Shown here: one piece after another, positions 1 through 20,514 of the stretch
Layout of the letters: every line of letters begins with the position of its first letter
Numbering within the stretch: the first letter of the stretch is position 1
Virus record (IMG/VR): IMGVR_UViG_3300034104_004653
Coordinates: 1-20,514 of that record
DNA from: a virus
Length of the DNA: 20,514 nt
Reading direction: 5' to 3' (one strand)
The notes under the pieces: model-generated
Told to the model about the DNA's origin: nothing
What the model saw: only the letters and a program-made list of their open reading frames with translations
Database searches by the model: none
Position numbers and translations under genes: made by a program

Positions 1-49
1 TATCGGACGGGTAATCCCTCAACTGCTCAATCAATTCTGCGACAGTCAT
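1..49 (-). CDS. small phage protein, N-terminal fragment
   Basis: Only the first 16 codons are inside the window; the gene continues off the left edge. The visible peptide is MTVAELIEQLRDYPSD, which resembles the start of many short phage proteins that begin MTV-x-ELI-x-x-L-x-x-Y-P-x-D, a family without a settled function. The start is well supported: an AAGGAG Shine-Dalgarno lies 5 nt upstream (50-60), and a TTGACA/TAGAAT promoter sits directly before that (68-96). The family resemblance is from memory; the start, ribosome site and promoter are read from the sequence. Confidence 0.7.
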   Translation of the reverse strand, partial: MTVAELIEQLRDYPSD

Positions 50-67
50 AAGTTCTCCTTAGCCTAC

Positions 68-96
68 ATTCTACACTATCTTATTTGTATTGTCAA
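68..96 (-). promoter_or_regulatory. sigma-70-type promoter for the gene at 1-49
   Basis: TTGACA (96-91), 17-bp spacer, TAGAAT (73-68). The -10 is preceded by TG. The leader before the AAGGAG site is only a few nucleotides long. It also marks the latest possible end of the candidate RNA coming from the right. Confidence 0.75.
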
Positions 97-99
97 CCA

Positions 100-607
100 G
101 CGAATCTTTTACGCCCCGATTCTATAACCCACCAATACTCCGATATTTTGAACCCTTGGAGCAAGGTAAAAACTGGTGGAAACCGCCCACGCTGCTTCGC
201 TGCTTTCGGGTACCTATTATCAGGCAGCTTATCAGAGGCAACGGTTACTGGTTATTCGGTATCCGGCTGTTGTTTCAGTGATTCTACCCGATGAAGGATA
301 AAATGCAAGCGCAATGTTGCAGTGTTAATTCACTCTATTACCCGATGAAGGATAATACCGGATTGTATTGGAGCGTGACCAAGGATTCGCACCTCAGTAG
401 ATCGGTATACTATCCTAACGTATAACCCCGTTAGGCAACCCCACGCTGCATAACAGACCGTAGGTTTATCGTACAGGTTATCCCAATCTAGTCGCTAGAC
501 TCACGCACTGTATTGTGAGGACCGATTGTAGCAGACGTTTCCTAGGACATCAACTACCGTTTTTACCGGCTACTCGGCCCGACATAACCAACAAGCGTTT
601 GCTTGTA
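100..607 (-). ncRNA. candidate large structured non-coding RNA (about 500 nt)
   Basis: A strong promoter (614-642) points into about 500 nt with no ORF that has both length and a ribosome site. The RNA read on the minus strand is full of local stems. There is a 6-bp hairpin exactly at the expected transcript start (591-606, loop AAAC). There is a 7-bp stem CCTAACG/CGTTAGG, a 5-bp TCTAG/CTAGA stem with a CGA loop, a CTCAC/GTGAG stem, and CCTTG/CAAGG. Two identical UAUCC-UUCAUC-GGGUA hairpins occur at 285-301 and 339-355. A longer pairing GCGTGA/TCACGC joins 501-506 to 373-378, and a T-loop-like GGTGCGAATCC precedes its 3' strand. Size, phage setting and ornate folding recall GOLLD and ROOL RNAs, but I cannot match a consensus. 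The 3' end is not defined. Inference throughout except the promoter and the stems. Confidence 0.5.
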
Positions 608-613
608 TTATCA

Positions 614-642
614 AGTATATCTTATCAAATATTATTTGTCAA
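614..642 (-). promoter_or_regulatory. sigma-70-type promoter for the large RNA candidate
   Basis: TTGACA (642-637), 17-bp spacer, TATACT (619-614). Expected start near 607, directly at the first hairpin of the RNA candidate. No gene start with a ribosome site follows for about 560 nt. Confidence 0.75.
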
Positions 643-649
643 GAGAACA

Positions 650-785
650 GGACAGGAAACACCCGGAGTCGCACCGGCCACAGGTCGCGTCCTGTGTTGC
701 TTCGTAGGTCTATGTGGCAGTTATCTTGGCCTTCGATAACTGAGAACAACCTTGTGTCCCCTGTCTTGCTCTCTCGTACTCAATC
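650..785 (-). ncRNA. candidate structured small RNA with tRNA-like branching
   Basis: A TTGACA/TAGAAT promoter (786-814) is followed by about 130 nt without a usable ORF, ending just before the next promoter. The minus-strand RNA is closed by a 12-bp stem, GACAGGGGACAC with GTGTTTCCTGTC (10 Watson-Crick pairs, 2 G-U). Inside are three hairpins: CAGTTATC/GATAACTG (8 bp), CACAGG/CCTGTG (6 bp) and CCGG/CCGG with loop TGCGACT. The last resembles a tRNA T-arm (GGTTCGANTCC) with one change at the second loop base. The order, with the T-like arm next to the closing stem, is cloverleaf-like, but I find no acceptable D-arm or anticodon loop and no CCA, so I do not call a tRNA. The precise 5' and 3' ends are not known. 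Confidence 0.5.
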
Positions 786-814
786 ATTCTACTATCTATT
801 ATCGGCTTTGTCAA
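786..814 (-). promoter_or_regulatory. sigma-70-type promoter for the small RNA candidate
   Basis: TTGACA (814-809), 17-bp spacer, TAGAAT (791-786). The TGA inside the -35 (813-811) is the stop codon of the gene upstream, so gene end and promoter overlap. The spacer carries CCGATA, a variant of the GTCGATA box seen at neighbouring promoters. Confidence 0.75.
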
Positions 815-981
815 GAGGTTTCTTTAGAAGCAGAGACCCAATCTCCAAGATACACACGCTCCACAAACAGCCTATCACCATACTGCTCTTGTGCAATACG
901 CATAGCATCCCATTCGCTATGGGCTTTCACATATCCAGCAATACGACAATCTTTCATCACCACCCAAGTATATAAAATCAT
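811..981 (-). CDS. small hypothetical protein, 56 aa
   Basis: A 56-codon frame starting MILYTWVVMKDCR and ending VSASKETS. It has a GGAG 8 nt before the ATG and a promoter about 20 nt further upstream (1003-1030). The centre (GYVKAHSEWDAMRIAQEQYG..LFVERVYLG) looks like a short alpha/beta fold typical of small phage proteins in which a 'GYV-A-SE-DA---A---YG' stretch recurs; I cannot assign a role. A competing ATG 6 nt nearer the GGAG opens only 23 codons, so the longer frame is preferred. The stop codon lies within the next promoter's -35 box. Confidence 0.75.
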   Translation of the reverse strand: MILYTWVVMKDCRIAGYVKAHSEWDAMRIAQEQYGDRLFVERVYLGDWVSASKETS

Positions 982-1002
982 TGGTCATTCTCCGTTTCCA
1001 TC

Positions 1003-1030
1003 ATCCTATCATATAGAATCGACATGTCAA
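1003..1030 (-). promoter_or_regulatory. sigma-70-type promoter for the gene at 811-981
   Basis: TTGACA (1030-1025), 16-bp spacer, TAGGAT (1008-1003). It is preceded by AAAGTTTTTCTC, the A/T-rich upstream block shared by several promoters of this region. The spacer contains GTCGAT. Confidence 0.65.
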
Positions 1031-1056
1031 GAGAAAAACTTTAGCAGAAAAGATTT

Positions 1057-1152
1057 GTCGTAAAGCGTTCTGGTAAAAGAACTTACAGCCACCGGGGCGG
1101 CGCAGCCTCGCCCTAAGTGCTGCCGTAGCAACAACTTAGGGGAGGCGCCTAT
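1057..1152 (-). repeat. hairpin element, copy a (five-copy family)
   Basis: First copy of a dispersed family built of alternating arms, CGTAA(A)GnC-like and its complement, around a G/C-rich centre. It lies between the TAA of the gene at 1155-1559 and the next promoter. It contains the strongest hairpin of the family: 1106-1145 folds as a nearly perfect 18-bp stem capped by UACG in the minus-strand RNA, a UNCG-type tetraloop closed by C-G. The flanking arms diverge from the other copies. It could end, process or protect the upstream transcript; no U-run follows on the minus strand. Confidence 0.6.
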
Positions 1153-1154
1153 TT

Positions 1155-1559
1155 TTACAGCATTGCTGCTGCGGTTTTAAACAATGCACTAGCAAGCAGT
1201 GGCTTACGACAGTTCTTAATGCGTTCAGCATAAAACTGCCTAATCTTACCGTCTGGAGTCTCGCAAACAATCAGATTCTTAGTACGCTTGAAAACCGGAT
1301 CATTACGACGGTATGTGCTTCTCTTGTTAAGAAATGCAATACGACCATCAGTCAGCGTATAAACCGGCTCAATAACCTTAGCCAGAAAACGCTTAGGATC
1401 ACCATGCAAAGGTTGCTCATATTCAAAGTTGAATACATCACCAATCTTAGCATTCTCAACAGAAGACCTAGTACCACCATACATACTATACATCAGAAAA
1501 CTACCAACAGCAATCGCCACCATGGCGAAGAGACCAGCAAACAAAACCGCATTATCCAT
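1155..1559 (-). CDS. membrane-anchored hypothetical protein, 134 aa
   Basis: Residues 3-28 are hydrophobic (LFAGLFAMVAIAVGSFLMYS) and form one membrane segment, with a short extracytoplasmic or cytoplasmic tip before it. The rest is a soluble domain beginning GDVFNFEYEQPLHGDPKRFL and containing YRRNDPVFKRTKNLIVCETPDGKIRQFYAERIKNCRKP, basic and beta-rich in appearance. I do not recognise the family. AAAGGG precedes the ATG by 6 nt, and promoter 1600-1628 lies just upstream. It ends in TAA, immediately followed by hairpin element a. A single-spanning protein in the early region could act at the host envelope, but that is only a guess. Confidence 0.75.
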   Translation of the reverse strand: MDNAVLFAGLFAMVAIAVGSFLMYSMYGGTRSSVENAKIGDVFNFEYEQPLHGDPKRFLAKVIEPVYTLTDGRIAFLNKRSTYRRNDPVFKRTKNLIVCETPDGKIRQFYAERIKNCRKPLLASALFKTAAAML

Positions 1560-7286: not shown

Positions 7287-7505
7287 TTAACTTTGTAACT
7301 CAGCATCTTTCCAATCTAGCTTCTTTGGTCGGCCTATCTTTTTAATCAAAAGCAACTTGCGCCTTTGTTGCCTAATCATATCAGCACTAATATTTTGCCC
7401 CGTAATAACACTCAACTTTAGAGCTATTTCTTTGTCGCCCATGCTTGGAGCATTATCCCTTATGAAGCTCTTTTCTGTATCAGACCACTTTTTATAATTA
7501 GCCAT
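7287..7505 (-). CDS. small putative DNA-binding protein, 72 aa
   Basis: Encodes MANYKKWSDTEKSFIRDNAP, then SMGDKEIALKLSVITGQNIS and a basic end RQQRRKLLLIKKIGRPKKLD. The pattern (W-x(3)-E-x(2)-FI, 'MGDKEIALKL', 'S-x-x-x-x-RQQRRKL' and a GRPKK tail) fits a Myb/SANT-like or other three-helix DNA-binding fold common in phage regulators; this is by eye. It stands alone and opposite to the late genes, beside the divergent region at 7506-7586, a usual place for a regulator. AAGGG is 7 nt before the ATG. Base composition resembles the rightward genes. Confidence 0.75.
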   Translation of the reverse strand: MANYKKWSDTEKSFIRDNAPSMGDKEIALKLSVITGQNISADMIRQQRRKLLLIKKIGRPKKLDWKDAELQS

Positions 7506-18128: not shown

Positions 18129-20514
18129 ATGAGTTTTGATATAGAGATAGTAGAATCTGATCAAAAATACATATCTGTCGAAACATTTATTGGAAATGAA
18201 ATTGATCAAATAAGCCAAGAGAGTGGCGTTAGGTCGATAGATATTATAGAAAGCATGTATGGTACTGATGTATCATATACTAAAAATATTATTGATATAG
18301 ACTCTAATAGTATTAGTTACACTCCTAATATTATAGAAATTAGTCTTACTCCTACTCATAATGTAGATATTATTAATAATACAGAATATCTAGGAAATAT
18401 TCATATTACAAGAGTGGATGGCTTAGAAGATTTTTTAGATTCGTATGTACCAACCATATCTGGTATAAGTGGTGTAAATACAGCATTTTCTAAAATAATA
18501 GTTTCTGGTCAAGGTTCTATTATAGCAGATGCTGGTGAGGACACATTAACAATAATAGCAGGTAATGCTCTTTCAATTACAACCAGTTCCGGTATAGATG
18601 CTTTAACAATAGCAGTATCTGGATTAGAGTTTAATGATATAACAAATATTAATTCGGGTATTGCTGAACTAGTTGGAACCAATTTAGAACCAGGACAAGG
18701 AATTCAATTTAATTATAACTCTATTGATGATATTTTAACAATAGCCACATCAGGAGCTGTATTATTTGATGCTAATAATAATATTTATATTCCTGGTAAT
18801 ATAAGTTTAGCTGGAGATTTGACAGTTGGTGGAACAGGATATATAGTTGATACTGTCACATTAAATGTTGGCAATAATTTTATTAATCTAAATATCGTAG
18901 ATGTTGTGCCGAGTGGAGGATTAAGAGTTGTAAGATCTGGTTTGTTGCCAAGTGGATTCGCTACACTAGTTTGGTATGAAAATAAAAATAGATGGGAATT
19001 TGATCATGATTTATATGCTCCAAACATTATTGCTAATAGTATAGAAGCACCATTAATTACTGGAAATCTGGTTGGGCAAGCATCATTATCTAATCAGATA
19101 TTAGTTAGTGGTATTAATATCACAGATGATCAAACATATATTACATTTGTTAGAGATTCTATTTCTGGTTATCAATCAATTAATATTAATTCAAATTTCT
19201 TTTATAATCCAATAACCAACTCTCTATCTGTTGCAGTGGTCAGTGGCAATTTATCGGGTGTGGCCCTCTCTAGTAAAAGTATAGATATAAATTGTAATTC
19301 AGATAATGTATTTTATAATCTACTATTTGCTAGTTGTGGATCCGGGATCGGAATAAAAGCTTCATCGGGTATTAGATTTAACCCCTTATCGAACGCCCTA
19401 TCTGTACCACAAATTTCTGGTACAAATTTTACTAATTCTATTTGGGATAATGGAATATTAAATCAAAATAATTTATTTCAATTAAGAAGAGCGTTGTCAT
19501 CTGAATGGTCAGGAGTTAATCCTGTACTAAATACCGGAGAACCAGGATATGATCTTAGTAATAATATACTAAAAATTGGAGATGGTATAACAGCATGGAA
19601 TAGTCTACAGGGCATAGTAACTAATAATTATGGTACTCAAGGTATACAGGGTATTCAAGGATTACAGGGATTACAAGGATTGATAGGTAATACTGGCGTT
19701 CAAGGATTACAAGGCAGACAGGGTATTCAAGGATTACAAGGAAGACAAGGTATCCAAGGCATTGGTATTCAAGGAAGGCAAGGTACTCAGGGATTGGCTG
19801 GAAGCGGTGGTTTACAAGGTATACAAGGAGCTAGTGGTATTCAGGGATATACTGGCCCATTTGGTCCTCCTGGTAGTACTGGTATTCAAGGAATACAAGG
19901 GATTCAAGGATATTCTAATATTGATTTAAGTCAAAATTTTATTGCTGGTACTGGTATTAGTTTAGTGTTCGATAGCGGAAATAATACATTAATTATAAAT
20001 GCTATATTGAGTGGTACTATCACAGGTATTGGTATTCAAGGAACACAAGGTATTCAGGGTATTCAAGGTATCCAAGGATTACAGGGTAGACAGGGCATTC
20101 AAGGTTTGCAGGGCATCCAAGGTATTGTTGGAAGTACTGGCGTTCAAGGCTTGCAGGGCATCCAAGGTATTGTTGGAAGTACTGGCGTTCAAGGCTTGCA
20201 GGGCATACAGGGCATTGTTGGAAGTACTGGCGTTCAAGGCTTGCAGGGCATCCAAGGTATTGTTGGAAGTACTGGCGTTCAAGGCTTGCAGGGCATCCAA
20301 GGTATTGTTGGAAGTACTGGCGTTCAAGGCTTGCAGGGCATACAGGGCATTGTTGGAAGTACTGGCGTTCAAGGCTTGCAGGGCATCCAGGGTATTGTTG
20401 GAAGTACTGGCGTTCAAGGCTTGCAGGGCATCCAGGGTATTGTTGGAAGTACTGGCGTTCAAGGCTTGCAGGGCATCCAGGGTATTGTTGGAAGTACTGG
20501 CGTTCAAGGCTTGC
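18129..20514 (+). CDS. collagen-like tail fibre, 5' part (795 codons, continues off the edge)
   Basis: One open frame runs from ATG 18129 to the window end without a stop. Residues 1-450 are Ile/Ser/Asn/Gly-rich beta sequence of the kind found in phage fibre shafts. About residues 452-497 (LRRALSSEWSGVNPVLNTGE, PGYDLSNNILKIGDGITAWN) match the Mtd-N-type segment that frequently precedes fibre repeats. From residue 502 the protein turns to Gly-X-Y repeats (GIQGLQG type), broken by a globular stretch (about 597-633), then regular 15-residue units QGLQGIQGIVGSTGV. These would form a trimeric collagen-like stalk. The tip, which should contact the host, is beyond the window. The start has no strong Shine-Dalgarno and is probably coupled to 17720-18127. 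Confidence 0.85.
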   Translation, partial: MSFDIEIVESDQKYISVETFIGNEIDQISQESGVRSIDIIESMYGTDVSYTKNIIDIDSNSISYTPNIIEISLTPTHNVDIINNTEYLGNIHITRVDGLEDFLDSYVPTISGISGVNTAFSKIIVSGQGSIIADAGEDTLTIIAGNALSITTSSGIDALTIAVSGLEFNDITNINSGIAELVGTNLEPGQGIQFNYNSIDDILTIATSGAVLFDANNNIYIPGNISLAGDLTVGGTGYIVDTVTLNVGNNFINLNIVDVVPSGGLRVVRSGLLPSGFATLVWYENKNRWEFDHDLYAPNIIANSIEAPLITGNLVGQASLSNQILVSGINITDDQTYITFVRDSISGYQSININSNFFYNPITNSLSVAVVSGNLSGVALSSKSIDINCNSDNVFYNLLFASCGSGIGIKASSGIRFNPLSNALSVPQISGTNFTNSIWDNGILNQNNLFQLRRALSSEWSGVNPVLNTGEPGYDLSNNILKIGDGITAWNSLQGIVTNNYGTQGIQGIQGLQGLQGLIGNTGVQGLQGRQGIQGLQGRQGIQGIGIQGRQGTQGLAGSGGLQGIQGASGIQGYTGPFGPPGSTGIQGIQGIQGYSNIDLSQNFIAGTGISLVFDSGNNTLIINAILSGTITGIGIQGTQGIQGIQGIQGLQGRQGIQGLQGIQGIVGSTGVQGLQGIQGIVGSTGVQGLQGIQGIVGSTGVQGLQGIQGIVGSTGVQGLQGIQGIVGSTGVQGLQGIQGIVGSTGVQGLQGIQGIVGSTGVQGLQGIQGIVGSTGVQGLQGIQGIVGSTGVQGL
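19632..19917 (+). repeat. first collagen-like Gly-X-Y block within the fibre gene
   Basis: Roughly thirty consecutive Gly-X-Y triplets, mostly GIQ and GLQ with some GRQ, and a short GPFGPPGSTG stretch near the end. Glutamine takes the place that proline has in animal collagen, as in many bacterial and phage collagens. The DNA is irregular (CAA/CAG, GGA/GGT), so this block is older or under less recent expansion than the one at 20100. Confidence 0.8.
20100..20514 (+). repeat. 45-bp tandem repeat (nine full units, runs off the edge)
   Basis: Units start at 20100, 20145, 20190 and so on to 20460, with a tenth starting at 20505. Each encodes QGLQGIQGIVGSTGV. Units differ at only a few third-codon positions (CAA/CAG, ATC/ATA, GGT/GGC), which points to recent expansion or gene conversion. 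The true unit number is unknown because the window ends here. Such repeats are also prone to assembly collapse. Confidence 0.95.

Follow-up and report, generated by a model that had tools for sequence, protein, structure and literature searches.

A stretch of about 500 nt in an uncultured large bacterial virus is non-coding and encodes a string of separately folded RNA pieces. The element is an array in which self-contained structured modules are set on an AAUACAA linker. In the window (the whole 20,514-nt stretch of DNA that was analysed), the modules stand in the order A-B-C-D, and a further RNA, E, lies directly upstream with its own promoter. We regard the existence of this RNA array as virtually certain, because compensatory changes among its relatives show that the minus-strand RNA is real. 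The features of the locus are as follows.

786..814, minus strand: promoter of the upstream RNA E, TTGACA-17-TAGAAT (11/12 matches).
645..781, minus strand: module E, a structured RNA of ∼137 nt (alignment with L086; MFE z).
614..642, minus strand: array promoter, TTGACA-17-TATACT (11/12 consensus matches).
516..608, minus strand: module A, a 5′ hairpin and a closed domain (19 sequences, covariation).
509..515, minus strand: linker CAAUACA between A and B (sequence).
371..508, minus strand: module B (35 sequences, covariation; covariance model match of 110 bits).
363..370, minus strand: linker CAAUACAA between B and C (sequence).
255..362, minus strand: module C, twin hairpins (7 distinct sequences).
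97..251, minus strand: module D, the constant last module (46 sequences, covariation).
68..96, minus strand: promoter serving the leftward gene that comes next; it abuts D directly (11/12 matches).
1..49, minus strand: beginning of the leftward ORF that follows (MTVAELIEQLRDYPSD...), truncated at the window edge (sequence; AAGGAG Shine-Dalgarno before the ATG).

The TTGACA/TATACT promoter put forward in the original prediction is present at 642-614 on the minus strand, with 11/12 matches. Its counterparts precede module A in 28/28 A-first arrays and form, across relatives, a TTGACA/TAGAAT-type, sigma70-like class; an E-type promoter precedes E, at the same place, in all four contigs that have this module (the window and three others). 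Frequent G-U pairs, the promoter and a U-run after D (TTTT in 35 relatives) together place the array on the minus strand. The bounds first proposed, 100-607, need small corrections, with the end of module D at 97 and the predicted start of transcription near 606.

The surroundings of the array show further regularities. Small ORFs line up leftward across positions 1-2100, and several of them have a TTGACA-17-TAGAAT-type promoter to themselves, so that the array and the neighboring small ORFs share one promoter type; promoter-like sites number 14 in this region against 3.9 expected from shuffling. Intergenic segments at 2201-2290 and 1054-1160 have an inverted-repeat character and similar copies in many relatives, and are possibly terminators or a mobile repeat. 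At the other end (18129-20514), an open tail-protein-like ORF carries long G-I-Q-G-L-Q collagen-like repeats at its end, where the window cuts it.

A coding function was considered and rejected. As predicted, the stretch contains no convincing gene: its ORFs reach at most 74 aa and have no Pfam match even at an E value of 0.1, and relatives display compensatory changes and indels of any length instead of the codon-like substitution that the original prediction had named as contrary evidence. Folding energy was dropped as uninformative, with a whole-stretch MFE z of −0.79 on the minus strand (20/100 shuffles were equally good) and −1.39 on the plus strand. The many stable stems noticed earlier do not, as such, exceed chance in stability; the proof of RNA structure lies in covariation among relatives, not in energy.

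The first related viral contigs were retrieved using a nearby protein (1155-1559) and the twin hairpin of module C, and many further ones with two patterns from the conserved 3′ module and its junction; two additional scans brought in further loci carrying B, D or A′. Module D occurs in 91 contigs including the window, once duplicate loci are removed, with lengths of up to 243,821 bp. By blastn against the first relatives, patches of the element are 78-97% identical, with large indels. A covariance model of B, run on 25 viral contigs (most >100 kb), found one site in 19, two sites in 2 and none in 4, two of which (L032 and L077) carry a divergent form, B3, instead; A′ is present in 19/25, once each except for one weak additional match. 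The array is a single copy per genome. Several module sets, searched against 50,697 phage records, returned short chance matches or nothing, and none of 111 pattern matches in bacterial genomes contained any module. These uncultured phages are distant from known ones, with a terminase 25% identical to those of Bacillus phages and a major head protein 23% identical to its Bacillus phage G counterpart. Ordinary tRNA genes or clusters lie near the array in many relatives. In four related phages, Pistol self-cleaving ribozymes (51-56 bits; L010:9995-10057, L015:3618-3680, L017:9010-9072, L018:5102-5164) sit ∼200 nt upstream of tRNA-Arg(TCT), where they perhaps process the tRNA transcript.

Alignment of the relatives fixed the structure of the individual modules. 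The hairpin predicted at the first nucleotides of the transcript (607-601/596-590, loop AAAC) is kept in 19 relatives, 5 of which show a compensatory C-G to U-A change at one pair, and is followed in module A by a domain closed by GGGCCGA (580-574) and UCGGUCC (525-519). Across 19 sequences of A, 98.3% of cells are paired and 7/25 pairs are doubly changed, which 0/500 shuffles equal, the double changes coming mostly from one divergent member. Module B comprises helices P1 (506-501/378-373), P2 (490-483/405-398), P3 (475-472/410-406) and P4 (434-429/420-415), and the pairing of 501-506 with 373-378 in the original prediction (GCGUGA/UCACGC) is its P1, several pairs of which are doubly changed in relatives. 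B also carries a T-arm-like hairpin (395-392/384-381, loop UGCGAAU) and a pseudoknot in which the P4 loop 427-422 (GGUUAU) pairs with 481-476 (AUAACC); 99.5% of cells in this helix are paired, with three doubly changed pairs that include A-U/G-C and C-G/G-C exchanges. Over 35 sequences of B, 95.8% of cells are paired and 18/39 pairs doubly changed (0/500 shuffles), and the covariation score is 0.302, compared with 0.139 after shuffling and ≤0.082 in shifted registers.

Module C is closed by UCCGGUAU/AUACCGA and has two hairpins with the same loop, UAUUAUCC-UUCAUC-GGGUAAUA (357-336) and UUUUAUCC-UUCAUC-GGGUAGAA (303-282), whose stems differ from one another by compensatory changes; its relatives, 7 distinct sequences found in several array contexts, are 88-98% identical to that of the window. 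Module D has a CCAGU..GCUGG closure, an AACCGUU/GGGCGGUU helix, a variable hairpin (UCCACCAGU/AUUGGUGGG) and a 3′ hairpin (GAAUC/GAUUC), with 94.6% of cells paired and 12/26 pairs doubly changed among 46 sequences (0/500 shuffles). For A′, a module described below, the values are 98.3% and 5/9. The covariation score in A, A′, B (with its pseudoknot) and D exceeds all shuffles and every register shift. The long helix GACAGGGGACAC/GUGUUUCCUGUC closes module E, and its 3′ strand is immediately preceded by a T-arm-like hairpin, CCGG-UGCGACU-CCGG; relative to L086, compensatory changes occur in the closing helix, in the T-arm stem and in a further hairpin (CACAGG/CCUGUG vs CAUAGU/ACUAUG), and the mean MFE z of the module is −4.4.

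Promoter and covariation together uphold the earlier proposal of a large structured phage non-coding RNA with its own promoter. Covariation also leaves next to no chance that the stretch consists of decaying tRNA genes and functionless intergenic debris. Such an origin might be read into the proximity of modules to tRNA clusters, or into one variant of a module named T that ARAGORN calls tRNA-Glu, yet it is already contradicted by covariation, since B, D, A′ and A have compensatory changes far in excess of those in shuffles, and the 78-97% nucleotide identity of the RNA patches contrasts with 49-67% identity, in the same relatives, for the neighboring protein 1155-1559.

The more specific proposal that the RNA is a GOLLD or ROOL did not hold. 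Rfam covariance models for GOLLD, ROOL, OLE, HEARO and tmRNA gave zero matches on window 1-1200 at any E value up to 5, and a six-module array from L050 had no GOLLD or ROOL match at E values up to 1. Other Rfam families were negative as well. The alternative of a new class is the better fit. ARAGORN detected neither tRNA nor tmRNA in the window, and Rfam RF00005 was likewise negative there. Among the modules scanned against Rfam, T alone matched, as a marginal tRNA in one phage.

We recognize at least 16 module families, or 17 with B3 counted separately: A, A′, B, B3, C, D, E, F, G, H, J, K, M, O, Q, R and T. An automatic count, a few truncated contigs included, gives 37 different arrangements of these families, all ending in D; in six contigs a distant T-H pair comes after this last module. 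B is almost always present and usually precedes D directly or with one or two modules between. Elements measure from ∼250 to 860 nt and contain 2-7 modules of ∼50-170 nt, the longest array having seven (F-A′-T-H-B-G-D, in L270). AATACAA stands at 131/183 inter-module joints and close variants at 29 more; this constant linker of 7-8 nt resembles the transcripts' own start (TAGAAT-ACAA). Expected end-to-end pairs number 3.9-12.6, compared with 0.9-4.0 after shuffling, for A′, B, B3, C, D, E, F, H, T, J, K, M, Q and R, which close on themselves, while A, G and O did not pass this simple pairing test. A and A′ are treated as separate families since a merged profile kept A′ and lost A. A further candidate, N, was dropped, as its matches at 57 loci mostly overlapped B and D.

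What follows D bears on whether the array is a cis-acting leader, a long 5′ untranslated region with a regulating or stabilizing effect on the mRNA downstream. In some relatives, L013 among them (GGUUUUAAUACAAAGGAGAAAGACAUG), the linker comes after D and leads to a Shine-Dalgarno and ATG. The gene that follows in the window, however, is served by a separate promoter that abuts D (96-68), and elsewhere what comes after D is a U-run (TTTT, 35 relatives), a tRNA or a further promoter. We consider a leader quite improbable, and the ORF at 1..49 is a separate gene downstream of the array. In L013, after position 7500, the Shine-Dalgarno and ATG follow the linker directly, and this and similar cases look as if the linker also joined coding cassettes.

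We further investigated whether the modules evolve and fold together. Across 1,953 pairs from the 63 arrays that have B as well as D, the identity of one does not correlate with that of the other (r = 0.10): 21 pairs are ≥97% identical in D and ≤75% in B, and 35 are ≥97% identical in B and ≤70% in D. The C module of the window is 94% identical to that of L019, compared with 69% and 66% for the adjoining B and D, and G, H, T, F, J and K are each 96-99% identical across differing architectures. This indicates that modules are exchanged between phages as cassettes, and the simplest reading is that exchange takes place at the linkers. No covariation that would indicate base pairing was found between B and D (63 sequences, with an effective number of 28 that limits power), and a single integrated fold is to that extent unsupported. 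In many phages A′ is a solitary gene with a promoter of its own, and in others it belongs to an array, which implies that a module can act alone. This module of ∼86 nt (L018:2887-2972 and ∼100 other viral loci) has strictly conserved loop motifs, AAUGAUAUCAAA and GAGUAUGGC. Given the double occurrence of A′ and the lack of B-D covariation, the modules are best read as independent RNAs within one transcription unit, and we consider their independence probable. The single ornate RNA of about 500 nt envisaged in the original prediction thus stands as a structured RNA but resolves into four modules on a linker.

The main rival to an operon of separate RNAs is a single GOLLD-like RNA particle. The modules would then be domains of one intact transcript of the GOLLD/ROOL kind, assembling into a multimeric particle, with D as its conserved 3′ core and the variable 5′ modules placed inside it or at its periphery. 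The layout shared with GOLLD (PMC12286853), the single copy per genome, the constant last position of D and the UUCAUC loop common to both hairpins of C would all suit such a particle. It is nevertheless rather unlikely: no covariation between modules was found, A′ is also a stand-alone gene, a range of ∼250 to 860 nt and 2-7 modules is poorly compatible with one closed particle, and neither the GOLLD nor the ROOL model matches.

The ends of several modules point to what separate RNAs might do. We scored a module as having a tRNA-like end when a hairpin with a 7-nt T-loop (U-N-N-R-A-N-N) immediately precedes the closing helix's 3′ strand. This T-arm is present in T (8/10), K (3/3), B3 (5/5), E (1/2) and B (10/63, with the B type of the window among the ten), at a shuffled rate of ≤0.0004. 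The test was negative for A, A′, C, D, F, G, H, J, M, O, Q and R; tRNA mimicry is therefore not the role of every module. Module T also retains the tRNA D-loop (UAAUGGUAG) and T-loop region (GGUUCGAUUCCA), with a longer domain in place of the anticodon arm. T modules were rejected as true tRNAs, their anticodon domain being replaced; among those scanned (L014, L017, L018, L025, L027 and L028), L018 alone passes as a tRNA (33 bits).

The most likely reading, to which we give an even chance, takes the array as an operon of small, stable RNAs, several of them mimicking tRNA ends, comparable to the tRNA/rnaC/rnaD cluster of T4. The primary transcript would be cut at the linkers into separate, decay-resistant RNAs, and the tRNA-like ends suggest that the cutting is done partly by host tRNA-processing enzymes that recognize the acceptor and T-arm. 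From the mimicry and the rapid exchange of modules we infer, more weakly, that the tRNA-like modules may be mimics or decoys occupying host enzymes that read the tRNA elbow, candidates being tRNA-directed defense nucleases and processing or translation factors; the fast exchange would then reflect an arms race with such enzymes. A role in mimicry or decoying is possible, with the balance leaning against it. Somewhat short of an even chance is the view that RNA cassettes are a new kind of genetic element: one locus where phages acquire, lose and swap RNA genes that each fold separately, so that each phage has its own tRNA-mimicking and other RNAs against host enzymes.

Around 100 phages carry such RNAs as interchangeable parts, with variation sufficient to fix their structures, and none of the at least 16 families is in Rfam except the tRNA-like T. 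Natural swaps reveal which parts are constant and which variable. Together, these properties make it possible to test function module by module. If the modules are indeed tRNA mimics, they are RNA-based counter-defense tools, of which, to our knowledge, there are few examples.

Several known RNAs resemble the array in part. ToxI, of type III toxin-antitoxin systems, consists of tandem copies of one ∼35-nt pseudoknot beside a toxin gene and is processed to units. Like it, the array is made of structured units, one with a pseudoknot, and has a short A-rich linker between them. By analogy, each module could be an RNA antitoxin or decoy that sequesters a different host nuclease or abortive-infection protein, with the linker as the cutting site of such nucleases, and unit exchange among phages would suit an arms race; the modules are, however, mutually unrelated and ∼50-170 nt long, unlike the repeats of ToxI, and we find this explanation improbable.

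The overall setting is already known. GOLLD and ROOL are large phage RNAs near tRNA islands, still without known function (PMC12286853), and the array shares with GOLLD its phage location, its length of several hundred nucleotides, its complexity and the tRNA islands nearby (PMC12286853). GOLLD has a conserved 3′ region and a variable 5′ region that sometimes contains tRNAs (PMC12286853); the array has a similar layout, with D last in 37 orders, and arrays contain or adjoin T modules and ordinary tRNAs. Its variable part differs in consisting of recurrent, exchangeable modules on a constant linker, with A′ also standing alone. GOLLD forms a homo-oligomeric nanocage. ROOL, comparable in size to the array, is likewise a large phage or prophage non-coding RNA near tRNA islands (PMC12286853), but it has one conserved fold of ∼600 nt, in contrast to a variable chain of separate folds with no Rfam match.

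Single modules resemble rnaC and rnaD of T4 (species 1 and 2), stable structured RNAs of ∼120-140 nt beside the phage tRNAs whose roles are still not known (PMC3014915, PMC9697503). In T4 (NC_000866, 70908-71171; L249), rnaC ends in a tRNA-like T-arm and closing strand, and this 3′ anatomy matches that of modules T, K, B3, E and some B. The hairpin CCGG-KUCGCUA-CCGG is common to rnaD and module O (L024/L028), with a z of 5.5, which is suggestive of homology for this one hairpin only. The covariance model of module B had no match in the T4 region, and neither rnaC nor rnaD is present in Rfam. T4 has two such RNAs, without a shuffled array and without the AAUACAA linker. A description of the element is absent from the literature searched, which left most subscription journals outside its scope, and the array is apparently a modular phage RNA system without earlier description, whose exchangeable-cassette organization may deserve its own category. 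Its closest analogues are GOLLD for the architecture and T4 rnaC and rnaD for the single modules.
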